A program made the translations under genes and the position numbers. A DNA stretch of 64,000 nt, taken from assembly GCA_016177805.1 (NCBI GenBank), contig JACOUN010000054.1, positions 1 to 64,000 of the forward strand. Reading direction: 5' to 3'. The notes beneath the pieces were generated by a model, which did no database searches, was not told the DNA's origin, and was given only the letters and a program-made list of their open reading frames with translations. Numbering within the stretch: position 1 is the stretch's first letter; every line of letters begins with the position of its first letter. Below are positions 14,533 to 23,187 of the stretch, one piece after another. This DNA comes from Rhodocyclales bacterium (GTDB taxonomy: Bacteria; Pseudomonadota; Gammaproteobacteria; Burkholderiales; Rhodocyclaceae).

Positions 14533-14713
14533 TTCGGCCATCCCTTCAGGATCACCACCTGGCGCGCGTTTGCGCCTTACACCTGTCGCGTTTGCATATC
14601 GTTGCAAATTTGACGGCGGGTAGTTTCTTGCCTGCGGTCGATTGCTATGATCGGCCGTCGACTACGCTTCCTTTCAAACAAATGACGAACCCGCAATCAG
14701 GGATGACCCGAAC

Positions 14714-17275
14714 ATGAATCTGCAAAGGTTCATCGTCCTGACTTCGGTCGCGGTTGGCGCCGTGTTTCTCGGCGGTAGCTGGATATCGGTCGGTGCCACC
14801 TTCGAGTCCCTGTTTCGTGACCAATCCAGAGCGCAGTCGGAGGAAATCGCCCGCATCACCTTCGCGTCGATGAACGAAATCATGAGCAAGGGGTGGTCGC
14901 GCAGTCAGGCCGAGCGCTTTCTCGCCGCGCTGCGCAGCAACCATGCAAATTCTGGGCTGTCGGTCGAGTTGTATCGCAGCCCGGTGGTCGAGGAGATCTT
15001 CGGCACCATAGAACAGCCCGCGATCGCGACCAACGTACGCCGGGCCTTCGATTCCGGACAGCGTGTGGACGACGACTTTGAACAGAGCTATCGCAGCGCC
15101 TTCCCCCTGGTGGCCGAAGAACGCTGTCTGCGCTGCCACGACAATGCCGCCACCGGCGACGTGCTGGGGGTGATGGAAATCCGCCAGGCCTATGGTGATC
15201 CACTACGCGCGGCCCGCATAGCGTTCTACCGCAATTCGACCCCCAGCCTGTTGCTGGCCGCGCTGATCGCCTGCATCGCGGTGTGGTGGGTCGGGAGAAG
15301 GATCTCGCGTGGGGTGAACAACGTCCAGTCCAGCCTTGACTCCATCAGCAAGGTGGCTGATCTGCGCAACTTCGAGGTCAGGCCGCAAAGACACGGGCTG
15401 GATGAGTTGGACCGGATACAGGGCTCGATCACGGCGCTGGCGACCCGGTTGCGTTCCATCGCGGTGGACAAGGACATCCTGATGTTCGAGATCGGCTTGC
15501 TCGAACGCTTCGTGATCACCTCGGAGGTGATACGCGACTGGCACGAATATGTGACCCAGTTGCTGGCGGACATCAACTCCATCCTGTACGCCCCGGTGCT
15601 GTTCTCGGTCTTCCAGATCGACGACGAATTGTTCGACATCGAGATCTTCTGGCATTCCACCCCGACACCGGCCTATCGTGCCCGCATCGAGTCGTCGGTC
15701 GCGGCGGCCATGCGGCAGGACCCGCGCTTCAACGCACCGGCATCGGTCAACATCCGCCACCACAACGCGACCGAGCATCAAGGCGACCTCGCGATCGACG
15801 ATACCCACCTCGAACTACAGGTCAAATCGTACTTCGTGGACAAACCCACGATCGGCAGCATCGTCGGCATCGGCGTGCATTCGGACACGCTGCGTGAGCC
15901 GACCCAGCACCTGGTGCTCGACAGCATCCTGTCCACGCTGCTCAACGTGGTCGGTTCCATCAAGGCCATCCACAAGTACACGCGCGATCTCGAGTACTAC
16001 GCGACCCGTGACCCGCTCACCGATCTGTACAACCAGCGCGTGTTCTGGGAACTGCTCAACTACGAGATCTCGCGCTGCGAGCGGCACGGCAACCGGGCCA
16101 CGCTGCTGATGCTCGACCTGGACAACTTCAAGCTGATCAACGACCACTTCGGCCACGCCACCGGCGACCTGTTCCTGCAGGCCTTCACCCGCTCGGTGAG
16201 CGCGGCCCTGCGCGGTGGCGATATCTTTGCCCGCTATGGCGGTGACGAATTCGTCGTGCTGCTGCCTGAAACCGATCTGGAGCAGGGGCATACGGTCGCG
16301 ATGCGGGTACTGGACGCGGCCCGCGCCACGGTGGTCGACCTTGGCGCGCAAGGCAAGGCGGCCGCGACCGTATCGATCGGGATCGCGGTGTACCCGGACC
16401 ATGCGGGCAACGCGAAAGACATGTTCCTGTTCGCCGACACGCTGATGTACAAGGCCAAGTCCGAAGGCAAGGAACGGATCAGCCTGCCGACCAAGGACGA
16501 CGTGATGGAAGTGTTCCGCAACATCACCGATACCGGCGTCGCGGTCGTGAACGCGATCAACGAGCGGCGCATCGTTCCGTTCTTCCAGCCCATCGTGCAT
16601 ATCGCCGGCCAGTTTCAGAATGCGGTCGAAGTCCTGTCACGCATCGAGATCGACGGCAAGCTGATGCGGGCCGATCAGTTCATCGAAATCGCCGAAAAGA
16701 TGAGCATGATCCACCGCCTCGACGCCATCGTGATGGAGAAGGCGCTGGACGCAATCGCGTGCAGCGGCTTTCAGGGGCCGGTGTTCTTCAACCTCTCGCC
16801 GCGCGCATTGCTGCTGTCCGAATTCACCCAGACCCTGCGCGGCATCGTGCGCCAATCCGGGGTGCCGCCCGAGCGTATCGTGTTCGAGATCACCGAACGC
16901 GACACGGTCAAGAATCTGTCCTTGCTGGAGCGCTTCCTTGCCGACCTCAAGGCCGAGGGCTTCCGCCTCGCGATCGATGACTTCGGCTCCGGGTTCTCGT
17001 CATTCCACTACCTGCGACGCTTTCAGTTCGACTTCCTGAAGATCGAAGGCGACTTCGTCGCCAACATGATCGCCAGCAAGCGCGACCGCATCTTCGTGCG
17101 CTCGATCAACGAACTCGCGCGCTCGCTCGGCATACAGGTGATCGCCGAATACGTCGAATCCGCCGAAGTGCTGGCGCTGCTCAAGGAACTGCGCATCGAC
17201 TACGCGCAGGGCTATCACGTCGGACGCCCGAGCCAGGATCTACCCGTCGCACACAGTACCAGGATCGCGCTGTAA
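14714..17275 (+). CDS. Membrane sensor with periplasmic haem motif (DUF3365-like), GGDEF and EAL domains
   Basis: 853 residues. Helix 1 is about 7-27 and helix 2 about 177-195. The periplasmic region between them resembles DUF3365/Tll0287 sensors and has a c-type haem motif, C138-L-R-C141-H142. Then come a HAMP-like linker, a GAF-like region (about 250-410), a GGDEF domain (motif YGGDEFVVLLPE intact, preceded by DPLTDLYN) and an EAL domain to the end. The EAL signature reads EVL; the other metal and catalytic residues look kept (NLSP, ITERD, IDDFGSG, LKIEGDF, AEYVES, YAQGY). It likely turns redox, oxygen or NO sensing into a change in cyclic di-GMP. Whether the EAL half is active or only regulatory is open. 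Confidence 0.88.
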   Translation: MNLQRFIVLTSVAVGAVFLGGSWISVGATFESLFRDQSRAQSEEIARITFASMNEIMSKGWSRSQAERFLAALRSNHANSGLSVELYRSPVVEEIFGTIEQPAIATNVRRAFDSGQRVDDDFEQSYRSAFPLVAEERCLRCHDNAATGDVLGVMEIRQAYGDPLRAARIAFYRNSTPSLLLAALIACIAVWWVGRRISRGVNNVQSSLDSISKVADLRNFEVRPQRHGLDELDRIQGSITALATRLRSIAVDKDILMFEIGLLERFVITSEVIRDWHEYVTQLLADINSILYAPVLFSVFQIDDELFDIEIFWHSTPTPAYRARIESSVAAAMRQDPRFNAPASVNIRHHNATEHQGDLAIDDTHLELQVKSYFVDKPTIGSIVGIGVHSDTLREPTQHLVLDSILSTLLNVVGSIKAIHKYTRDLEYYATRDPLTDLYNQRVFWELLNYEISRCERHGNRATLLMLDLDNFKLINDHFGHATGDLFLQAFTRSVSAALRGGDIFARYGGDEFVVLLPETDLEQGHTVAMRVLDAARATVVDLGAQGKAAATVSIGIAVYPDHAGNAKDMFLFADTLMYKAKSEGKERISLPTKDDVMEVFRNITDTGVAVVNAINERRIVPFFQPIVHIAGQFQNAVEVLSRIEIDGKLMRADQFIEIAEKMSMIHRLDAIVMEKALDAIACSGFQGPVFFNLSPRALLLSEFTQTLRGIVRQSGVPPERIVFEITERDTVKNLSLLERFLADLKAEGFRLAIDDFGSGFSSFHYLRRFQFDFLKIEGDFVANMIASKRDRIFVRSINELARSLGIQVIAEYVESAEVLALLKELRIDYAQGYHVGRPSQDLPVAHSTRIAL

Positions 17276-17379
17276 CCCATGCAAACCGGACGCATCGATT
17301 CAACTGCAACGAACAAGAATCAAATAACAGCAATAAATAATATTCATACAGTCACACTTACTTGAAGAAAGGGGTTCTC

Positions 17380-19380
17380 ATGTTCGGCAAGTCAACGTCC
17401 GTGGCGACGAGGTTGAGCCTCGTGCTCGCCACCGCCATCACCCTGCTCCTGGTCGGCTCTTCATTCGTGCTGTCGCGTACGCTCGCCGACCAGCTCGAAG
17501 TCAAGTCATTGCAGTCCCTGAAGAACACCAACCGGGTCATCGTCGACATGATCGACGCTTACGACGGCGAACTGAACGCGCAAATCCGCCGCCTCGGGCG
17601 TCTGTTTTCCGCCCGATACCCCGAACACTTCCAGCTCGACAGCGGCGGAACCCTGCAGCACGGAAACACCCCGATCACCTACCAGGACACCACCGGCCCC
17701 GACCGGTTCACCGAGCTGGCAGGCGTGGCGGCCACGGTGTTGACACGCAAAGGGGATGATTTCGAACGTACTTCGACATCCATCACCGACACCTCCGGCA
17801 AGCGCGCGTCGGGTGTTCCGCTGGGTCCCGACCATCCGGCCGTCCCCCGTCTGCTCAAGGGCGAGTCCTACACCGGCAAGGCCAGCATGCTGGGGCGCGA
17901 CTTCATGACCCACTACATCCCGATCAAGGGCAACGATGGGCAGGTCATCGGCGCGTTCTTTGTCGGCCTGGACTTTACCGAGGGGCTGGCGACGCTGAAG
18001 AAGAAAGTCCTCGCGGTCAAGATCGGCGAGACCGGCTACCCCTACGCCCTCGACATCGGCCGCGACAAGGGGGTGCTGACCATACACCCCGCCAAGGAAG
18101 GCACCTCGTTACTCGACACACGCGACAGCGCGGGCAAGAACTTCGTGGCCGAGATGATCGAGAAGAAGGACGGCGTCATCACCTACTGGTGGCAGAACCC
18201 TGGCGATGCCGAGGCGCGCGAAAAGATCGTGGTCTTCACCCATTTTCCGCAATGGAACTGGCTGATCGCCTCGGGTAGCTACCTCGACGAATTCAACGGC
18301 GAAGCCAAGGCCGCCGGTCGCGGCATGCTGTGGTTGTCGGTGGGCCTGATCCCGGTCATGGCCCTGTTGATCTGGCTGTGCACCCGCGTCTGGATTGCCC
18401 GTCCGCTCAACGATGCGGTCGCCCTCACCCGCCAGGTGGCGGATGGCAATTTCTCGATGAACATCGAGGCGCGCTCCAACGACGAAGTGGGCTCGCTGAT
18501 GCGCGCGCTCTCCACCATGGTCAAGGATTTGCGCACCATGCTCGATGAAGTGCGCACCGCGGCCACGTCGGTGGCGACCGATGCGCATCAACTGACCGGT
18601 GCGGCCGACTGCGTTGCCGAACGTTCCGCCGAACAAAGCGACGCCGCTTCCAGCATGGCGGCAGCAGTGGAGCAGATGAGCACCAGCATCGATGTGATCG
18701 CCGAACATGCCGGCGATGCACGTTCGGTCACCGATGAATCGCACACCATTTCGACGCAAAGCGCGCACACGATAGAGCAAACCGTGCAGGCCATGACCCG
18801 CATCGCCGCAACCGTGCGCCAGTCGTCCGAAACCATCGTCAACCTGGGCAAGGAATCCCGCGCGATTTCCGCGATCGCCGACGTGATCAAGGATATTGCC
18901 GATCAGACCAACCTCCTGGCACTGAACGCCGCGATCGAAGCGGCGCGCGCGGGCGAAGCCGGACGTGGCTTTGCGGTGGTGGCCGACGAGGTAAGAAAGC
19001 TCGCGGAACGGACCACCAACTCGACCCTGGAGATCAACGAAATGATAGGACGCATCCAGCAAGGAACACAGCGCGCCGTCGACCACATGGAATCAGGCGT
19101 CACCGAAGTCGATCGCGGCGTGCAACTGGCCGACGAAGCCCGGACAGCGATCCAGCGCATCAAGGACGGCGCCCAGCGGGTGGCTCAAGCGGTGTCGACC
19201 ATCTCCAGTGCGATCAACGAGCAAAGCGTGGCCAGCGCCAGCGTGGCCCAGGGGCTGGAGAGAATCGCGCAGATGACCGAGCAGAACAACGGCAGCGCCC
19301 AGGAAACGGCGCGTTCGGCCCAGCAGTTGCAAGGGGTCGCCAGCCGCCTGCACCGCAACGTCGAGCGTTTCCGCACCTGA
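17380..19380 (+). CDS. Methyl-accepting chemotaxis protein with periplasmic Cache domain
   Basis: 666 residues. An N-terminal helix ([21 protein letters not shown]), a large periplasmic sensor and a second helix ([23 protein letters not shown]) are followed by HAMP and the signalling domain. The sensor is of the Cache_3-Cache_2 type: [30 protein letters not shown] and [25 protein letters not shown]. The hairpin tip sequence ([20 protein letters not shown]) is fully conserved. The ATG at 17380 is preceded by AAAGGGG. Ligands of such Cache receptors are usually small organic acids; none can be named. Confidence 0.92.
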
Positions 19381-19454: not shown

Positions 19455-21254
<1,800 letters not shown>

Positions 21255-21340: not shown

Positions 21341-23029
21341 TCACTGGCGTGTGGGTGCCACGGATGCAACTTCGGCGCTGTCGTCGGCACTCGCCTGCTT
21401 CACTCTTGTTTCGCGGCGCTTGCGCCGGTCTATCAACGGTACGCACATCTTGTCGTTGTAGTAGATGACCTGGCAGTCCATGCAATAGTGGCACTCGTTG
21501 GCATTGATCTCGCCGGTCGGACGAATTGCCCGCACCGGACAGCGGCTGGCACAGACCTGACAGGGCGTACCGCACTCCTTGCGCCGGCGCAGCCACCAGT
21601 CGAACAGACGGAACCGTCCGGGAATGGCCAGCGCCGCGCCCAGCGGACACAGGTACTTGCAGAAGAACTTGCGGTTGAACAGCGACAGCACGATGAGCGC
21701 CAGCGCATACGTCACGAACGGCCACTCGCGATCGAAGCGCATGGATATCACCGTCTTGAAAGGCTCGACCTCGGCGTATAGCGCCGCTTCCGCCAGTGAC
21801 TGCATCGACACGCCGAACAGCATGATCAGGATCACGTACTTCACCGCGATCAGCCTTTCATGCACCGCGTCGCTGAACTCCCACTGCGGGAGCTTCAGCC
21901 GCCGCGATACGATCAGCATCAATTCCTGCAATGCACCAAACGGGCACAGCCAGCCGCAATAGACCCCCCTGCCCCACAACAGCAAGGTCACCGCGACGAA
22001 CGACCACAGAATGAACAGCATCGGGTCGATCAGGAAGGTCTCCCAACGGAAACCGTGCATCGCCGCGTTAACGAAGGTCAGCACGTTGATCACGGACAAC
22101 TGGGCCAGTCCCCACCAACCGAGAAAGAACAGCGCATACACATTGAAACCGGTGCGCACCCGGATCAGCGCGTTGGGATGGCGCGCAAGCCAGTCCTGGA
22201 ACATCAGGATAAAGGTGAGCGCCACCAGACCGACTAGCAAGACGCCGATCTCGAACACCCGCTGATGCCAGATGGCAACCCAGACCGGCTCCTCGCCCGG
22301 ACTGTTCCAGCGCCCGCCCAGCGCGGCCCCGGTCAGGGCGGCGGCGCTGGGCGCCGCATCGAGACGCGTTGCGGTCCGCATGGTGGGGGACTCCGAGGGC
22401 GCGGCGATCGTCACGACCGGAGGACGTGTGCTCGCCGCCACCCCGTCCGGCGCTTCACCCCCTTCGCCAACCGGCCCGATACCTCGTGACATTGCGAACT
22501 CGCCCGCCGCGCGCATCACGGTTGCATTTTCGACCATGACGGTAATGGTCGCCCCGGAAATGCCGTCTATCGCCAGATGCCCTGGGCGCGGCGCCCCGAT
22601 CACGACCTTGTCGTGGGCCGACTTGCCCTGGTACTGGGCAACGTAGCGTGCCAGGCGCTCTTCGGTAATGCCCACCGCCAGTATCGGCTCCTCATGCTGC
22701 ACGATGGCCAGGCCGGCAATGCGCCCGTCCATGCTGATGCCTATCAGGGTGTTGATCGGGCGCCCCGAATAGGCGGGAATGCGCAGCACGTCGTTGGTGA
22801 AGAACACGTATCCGATCTGGGCTCCATTGCGCGTCACAGGGGCCGCGGGTGGCGTACCGCCAAAGTCGCCGAACGCATCGGCTTCCGGAAAGATGGATCT
22901 CACCTGCGGGAAAACCGCCGCCACATCAGCCGCATGCAGCGGCGTGCGCGCGCATAGCAGCGCGACCACAAGAACACCTAGCAAACGGGCAATTGACATC
23001 ATTGGAAGCGTGAGACCATGGACAATCAT
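21341..23029 (-). CDS. NosR/NirI-family membrane flavo-iron-sulfur protein
   Basis: Members of this family support expression or electron supply of nitrous oxide reductase (NosR) or nitrite reductase (NirI). An N-terminal signal/anchor is followed by a periplasmic FMN-binding domain with the flavin attachment motif SGATIT (in DGISGATITVMVENA), several helices, two cytoplasmic CxxxCP motifs (CGWLCPFGALQE and CKYLCPLGAALA) and two 4Fe-4S cysteine clusters (CGTPCQVCASRCP and CHYCMDCQ). At about 562 residues it is shorter than typical NosR. Its position directly upstream of nirS on the same strand favours a NirI-like role. The ATG at 23029 is uncertain; starts at 23089 and 23002 are possible. Confidence 0.85.
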   Translation of the reverse strand: MIVHGLTLPMMSIARLLGVLVVALLCARTPLHAADVAAVFPQVRSIFPEADAFGDFGGTPPAAPVTRNGAQIGYVFFTNDVLRIPAYSGRPINTLIGISMDGRIAGLAIVQHEEPILAVGITEERLARYVAQYQGKSAHDKVVIGAPRPGHLAIDGISGATITVMVENATVMRAAGEFAMSRGIGPVGEGGEAPDGVAASTRPPVVTIAAPSESPTMRTATRLDAAPSAAALTGAALGGRWNSPGEEPVWVAIWHQRVFEIGVLLVGLVALTFILMFQDWLARHPNALIRVRTGFNVYALFFLGWWGLAQLSVINVLTFVNAAMHGFRWETFLIDPMLFILWSFVAVTLLLWGRGVYCGWLCPFGALQELMLIVSRRLKLPQWEFSDAVHERLIAVKYVILIMLFGVSMQSLAEAALYAEVEPFKTVISMRFDREWPFVTYALALIVLSLFNRKFFCKYLCPLGAALAIPGRFRLFDWWLRRRKECGTPCQVCASRCPVRAIRPTGEINANECHYCMDCQVIYYNDKMCVPLIDRRKRRETRVKQASADDSAEVASVAPTRQ

Positions 23030-23187
23030 TTTTTCATAATAACCCTGGCGCGGGCGCGCATACACGCGATATCGCGCGAATCGACGCAACCACGCCCCCG
23101 CGCCGCGCGCGCAGGTTTGGGGTTAAGATGAAGCCGCAGTGAGATGTCGCGGTCTGGTCGACTTTGATTCCTTACAAGGGGGCACAA

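Follow-up and report, generated by a model that had tools for sequence, protein, structure and literature searches.

The 64,000-nucleotide stretch of DNA analysed here, referred to as the window, includes an ORF on the forward strand (nucleotides 14714 to 17275) that starts with ATG, has no internal stops and codes for a protein of 853 amino acids. Its predicted organization, all on the same strand, consists of a membrane helix, a periplasmic haem-c sensor of the Cache type, a second membrane helix, HAMP, a middle domain, GGDEF and EAL. The helices were located by hydropathy at residues ~6-26 (nucleotides 14729 to 14791) and ~175-197 (15236 to 15304). Since they flank residues 138-142 (15125 to 15139), where the only CxxCH motif of the protein is found as CLRCH, this motif is predicted to be in an extracytoplasmic loop. 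The number of CxxCH motifs expected from the composition of the protein is 0.0008. The sensor domain encompasses residues 28-172 (14795 to 15229) and is followed by a HAMP-like linker (residues 192-247, nucleotides 15287 to 15454), a conserved middle domain (residues 250-425, nucleotides 15461 to 15988), a GGDEF domain (residues 430-588, nucleotides 16001 to 16477) with the GGDEF motif at 509-513 and an RxxD site at 500-503, and an EAL domain (residues 612-839, nucleotides 16547 to 17230) whose signature reads EVL at 639-641 (16628 to 16636). Pfam analysis of the complete protein gave clear matches to GGDEF (2.4e-43) and EAL (4.1e-60); the matches to HAMP, Mcp40H-20_sensor and Tll0287-like (DUF3365) were weak and under the curated cut-offs for the window protein alone. 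A search of the whole genome revealed no second full-length copy of the gene.

By sequence comparison the gene belongs to one intact orthologous family. Of 101 related genomes, 28 gave a match to the sensor part (residues 1-262), a strong one (E<1e-28) in 22 cases, and the gene is widespread among the relatives of the denitrifying host. Scanning GTDB with the peptide pattern AVDKx[IVM]LxFE, located C-terminal of the sensor and outside the haem site, yielded 211 loci with relatives, of which 80 were kept for analysis. These are mostly from Rhodocyclales, with others from Halomonadaceae, Hydrogenophilales, Gallionellaceae and Aquificaceae, and the cultured genera in the family include Azoarcus, Azospira, Dechloromonas, Azonexus, Denitromonas and Halomonas. 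All full-length members keep the entire domain layout. The CxxCH motif is present in 81 of 81 sequences (the 80 loci plus the window) and in 23 of 23 in an alignment of relatives, and for this reason we do not consider it a product of chance; the placement of a CxxCH at residues 138-142 of a putative periplasmic domain, as proposed in the initial annotation, was borne out. Met57 (nucleotides 14882 to 14884) is likewise found in 81 of 81 sequences and in 20 of 23 relatives, having been lost in three. In the 76 full-length rows that could be aligned, once five of the 80 loci that are cut short and weaker second matches inside genomes (for example L072 and L073) had been left out, the invariant residues of the sensor are Met57, Gly60, Trp61, Ala134, Cys138, Cys141, His142, Gly148 and Gly152. 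The dN/dS values against three relatives are between 0.14 and 0.36 in all domains and therefore indicate purifying selection. One orthologue (L048, G057:C1, ~1444-1448 kb) is broken just past HAMP by an insertion element, which leaves the haem sensor apart from the enzyme half. The insertion includes a 541-amino acid transposase-like ORF and a 208-amino acid TnpB-like ORF, and we take it to be an IS66-like element. This interrupted copy was excluded from the alignments, yet its genome was counted as positive in the association test described below.

A profile of the sensor domain compared with the PDB matched 3b47 (1e-5) and 3b42 (1.8e-4), both haem-c sensors from Geobacter, and no other chain below 0.05. 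In both alignments the CxxCH motifs coincide, and the counterpart of Met57 is position 26 of the chain. Counted from His143 or His144 this is residue 60, the Met60 of GSU0935 and GSU0582. The window domain scored 24.5 bits against PF21563 (cut-off 27) and 19 bits against PF11845 (cut-off 24.1); at E<=0.1, Mcp40H-20_sensor matched 65 of 76 family members and Tll0287-like 51 of 76. The structural model of the sensor (143 residues, pLDDT 88.7) has strands at 53-59, 89-93 and 96-104, a helix at 107-111 and a strand at 121-130 in its own numbering, and the helix with CxxCH sits between the third and fourth predicted strands, in agreement with the published description of sCache_heme. This kind of domain (DUF3365/Tll0287) was defined in a preprint by Deshpande et al. 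(2026), in which CXXCH is given for 99% of members (PMC12889525). Taken together, fold, motif and location as predicted make the window domain a member of sCache_heme, although its individual Pfam scores fall short.

Searched with Foldseek, the model had 3b47 and 3b42 as top matches (identity ~15-19%), and VIA ranked first the haem protein Tll0287 (5b82; Z 10.7, rmsd 3.2 over 126). The haem-free WalK ties with the latter (Z 10.6 vs 10.7), and Cache sensors lacking haem, WalK and DcuS among them, have this fold too, so that the protein could be an ordinary ligand-binding Cache receptor whose CxxCH serves without haem, for example as a disulphide or metal site. We regard this as very improbable: the motif is invariant including its His, Met57 is invariant at the place of Met60, the best matches by both profile and Foldseek are haem-c proteins, and the loop is predicted to be exported in a host with haem-c maturation, for which the window genome encodes ResB. 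The site is best read, from the alignments and the model, as a haem c ligated by His142 on the proximal and by Met57 on the distal side. The initial suggestion of covalent haem sensing coupled to cyclic di-GMP turnover consequently stands as the best reading of the profile and fold matches, the invariant CxxCH and Met57, and the predicted intact enzyme sites. A second, different CxxCH periplasmic sensor is encoded in the same genome (L184, G000:C5, 976-2616). It is a histidine kinase with the motif CVACH, matches the sensor profile weakly (E 0.003) and adjoins a response-regulator-like gene.

Downstream of the gene are a Cache chemoreceptor gene (17362-19380) and, on the opposite strand, nirS (19455-21224) and a NosR/NirI-like gene (21341-23089). 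This MCP-nirS-nirI arrangement recurs among the 80 loci only in L074, which is from the same genus, with a partial nirS match in L137; the adjacency of nirS was therefore dropped as general evidence of NO sensing. Clustering of the neighbours of the 80 loci and the window identified no gene present in most loci and hence no conserved operon. The gene metY is near in 11 of the 80, and several of the top clusters resemble antisense artefacts. An association with denitrification was found at the level of genomes, in a test that ignores phylogeny: nirS, nirK or nosZ was present in all 22 genomes that carry a strong copy and in 41 of the 79 others (p 6e-6), the values within the family being 19 of 19 and 24 of 42 (p 3e-4, phylogeny again ignored). 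The thresholds were set by us (nirS E<1e-140, nirK over its cut-off, nosZ E<1e-100), and six of the 28 sensor-positive genomes with weaker matches (G009, G018, G038, G039, G074 and G083; E 4e-13 to 3e-4) were scored as negative. FNR-like boxes (TTGATN4ATCAA) scoring at least 8/10 were more frequent upstream of family members (24/79) than upstream of neighbouring ORFs (76/808, p 9e-7), a rough control in which ORF starts were guessed. The numbers were 7/79 and 9/808 for boxes of at least 9/10, and 1/79 and 4/808 for perfect boxes, the latter not significant. FNR control is not claimed for the window gene because no such box was found upstream of it, the best one scoring 7/10. An 18-bp palindrome, TTTGCATATCGTTGCAAA, is located upstream of the gene at nucleotides 14591-14608, and at a stringency of at least 11/12 the remaining 79 upstream regions of the family do not contain it.

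The signals initially proposed for the haem were NO, oxygen and redox state. Oxygen appears to be the least likely, as one signalling-type member of sCache_heme was described to bind NO, with slow release, and to form no stable oxy complex (PMC12889525). The Geobacter sensors are informative with respect to the other two. In GSU0935 one haem of the dimer has His144-Met60 ligation and the other has His-water (PMC8396549, PMC3460858). The redox potentials reported for 3b47 and 3b42 are -156 and -251 mV, Met60 ligation is redox-linked, and the authors interpreted GSU0582 and GSU0935 as redox sensors (PMC8396549). As these are the closest sequence relatives and Met57 is kept in 81/81 sequences, the oxidation state of the iron, reflecting periplasmic redox poise, could be the signal instead of NO, Met57 being bound in the reduced form and released in the oxidised form as proposed for the Geobacter chemoreceptors. 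We consider this unlikely, since the domains of GSU0582 and GSU0935 both bind NO, and do so in the two redox states (PMC8396549, PMC3460858), and since the signalling member mentioned above has the properties of an NO sensor (PMC12889525). The enrichment of denitrification genes in the carriers also speaks for NO, although it is compatible with redox sensing too.

The middle domain (residues 250-425) is strongly conserved, with Trp276, Trp313, His349 and Lys371 invariant in alignment A6. Pfam searches gave no convincing match to this region, and no GAF family was among the matches to 30 members; a profile search of the PDB with residues 250-425 also found no GAF. A profile match to 7rdr, a repeat protein, amounted to ~6 bits per stretch and was discarded. 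The best 50 matches listed in a fold search with the full-length protein were GGDEF and/or EAL proteins and are uninformative on this region. The order of helices and strands in the predicted model resembles that of GAF, which suggests a GAF-like domain. When the 101 relatives were searched with this region, the 24 strong matches were all within the family of the window protein, and five weak ones (1e-7 to 1e-10) were elsewhere. Four of the weak matches (L176, L180, L181 and L182) are GGDEF proteins lacking CxxCH in the frames read; at the fifth locus (L177) the frame examined was the non-coding one. Since soluble GGDEF proteins contain distant copies of it, the domain may be a second input.

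Both output domains appear to be intact. The GGDEF motif and the RxxD site are conserved in all 77 copies in which the domain is present, and the metal and substrate residues D468, N476 and D477 are invariant. The EAL signature of 76 members is EVL in 66, ELL in four, EIL in three and ECL in three, always with the Glu; the domain is absent in five of 81, which are truncated upstream of the signature. Arg643 is replaced by Gly in one of the 76 rows, across which E639, N693, E725, D755, D756, K776, E812 and Q832, which we take to be the signature Glu and the catalytic residues, are invariant. The alignments thus agree with the initial annotation in that the signature is EVL with the other active-site residues kept. 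The impairment implied by its description of a degenerate signature is a different matter: EVL is the norm of the family and is reported to sustain activity (review, PMC4933438), and a degenerate or impaired EAL domain was rejected. The 11 next-best GGDEF-EAL proteins of the window genome read EAL in seven cases and nothing in four, so EVL is a trait of the family and not of the genome. The GGDEF-EAL query matched this 3.5-Mb genome at 53 places, so that its cyclic di-GMP network appears to be large.

As the GGDEF, RxxD and EAL catalytic residues are kept, synthesis and hydrolysis would both be possible. The protein could also be mainly a regulated phosphodiesterase, in which GGDEF would bind GTP and regulate EAL without making cyclic di-GMP and the haem would switch hydrolysis only. 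Among solved structures, RbdA (PA0861, ~31% identity) is the best match to the GGDEF-EAL half; it works by such a GTP-dependent mechanism, and for this reason we give the proposal a probability only slightly below even; the predicted retention of all GGDEF, metal-binding and RxxD residues argues against it. It is a variant of the output and is compatible with either NO or redox as the signal.

The explanation that we favour, and consider moderately probable, is a one-component transmembrane haem-c receptor in which NO or redox alters the Met57 bond and with it the balance between synthesis and hydrolysis of cyclic di-GMP. The periplasmic sCache-type domain would hold the haem covalently through Cys138 and Cys141, with His142 as the proximal ligand and Met57 as a labile distal one, and NO, or a change in the redox state of the iron, would break or rearrange the Met57 bond. 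Met57 sits where the long first helix ends, so a change at the haem could travel along the membrane helices and HAMP as far as the middle domain, and from there would alter synthesis by GGDEF versus hydrolysis by EAL, in whichever direction the response runs. A more specific version, in which periplasmic NO displaces Met57 and switches cyclic di-GMP within one polypeptide of a widespread denitrifier family, so that biofilm or motility decisions would depend on denitrification and residues 250-425 would provide a second input, is tentative and somewhat doubtful. If true, a periplasmic haem-c receptor consisting of a single protein would couple attachment and dispersal with denitrification in many cultured genera. 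Clean point mutants can be made in Met57, which provides a testable prediction, in the two Cys residues and in either output domain.

Among known GGDEF-EAL proteins, RbdA of Pseudomonas aeruginosa (PAS-GGDEF-EAL) has a sensor that is not a haem-c Cache domain and has the signature ELL where the window protein has EVL. DosP (haem PAS-GGDEF-EAL), which is among the fold matches listed and is labelled oxygen-sensing by NCBIfam, resembles our reading in that a haem sensor is joined to GGDEF-EAL; its haem is cytoplasmic and non-covalent and senses oxygen. The Geobacter proteins GSU0582 and GSU0935 (3b47, 3b42; relatives of PF21563) share the aligned CxxCH and Met residues but have a chemotaxis domain as output instead of GGDEF-EAL. 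A figure legend of the sCache_heme preprint already lists fusions of haem-c Cache sensors with GGDEF and with EAL (PMC12889525). Among the open-access papers listed by our searches, none characterised a cyclic di-GMP enzyme whose sensor carries haem c covalently, and a term search of the 2022 census of cyclic di-GMP sensing (PMC8846402) returned neither "c-type" nor "cytochrome". As described in the preprint, sCache_heme proteins are like the window protein in their extracytoplasmic Cache fold, the position of the CxxCH helix and the link through a membrane helix and HAMP to a signalling output (PMC12889525). They differ in that the NO sensor described there has no axial Cys and probably has water (PMC12889525), whereas Met57, invariant in most members, is the likely distal ligand in the window family, which also adds the middle domain and has a weak Pfam score. 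A periplasmic CHASE4 domain with non-covalent haem was reported to lower cyclase activity (PMC13277305). Finally, the reviewed routes from NO to cyclic di-GMP, through H-NOX and NosP, use a separate NO-binding protein (PMC8846402), in contrast with the periplasmic covalent haem c that, in our reading, would be part of the same protein as the enzyme domains.
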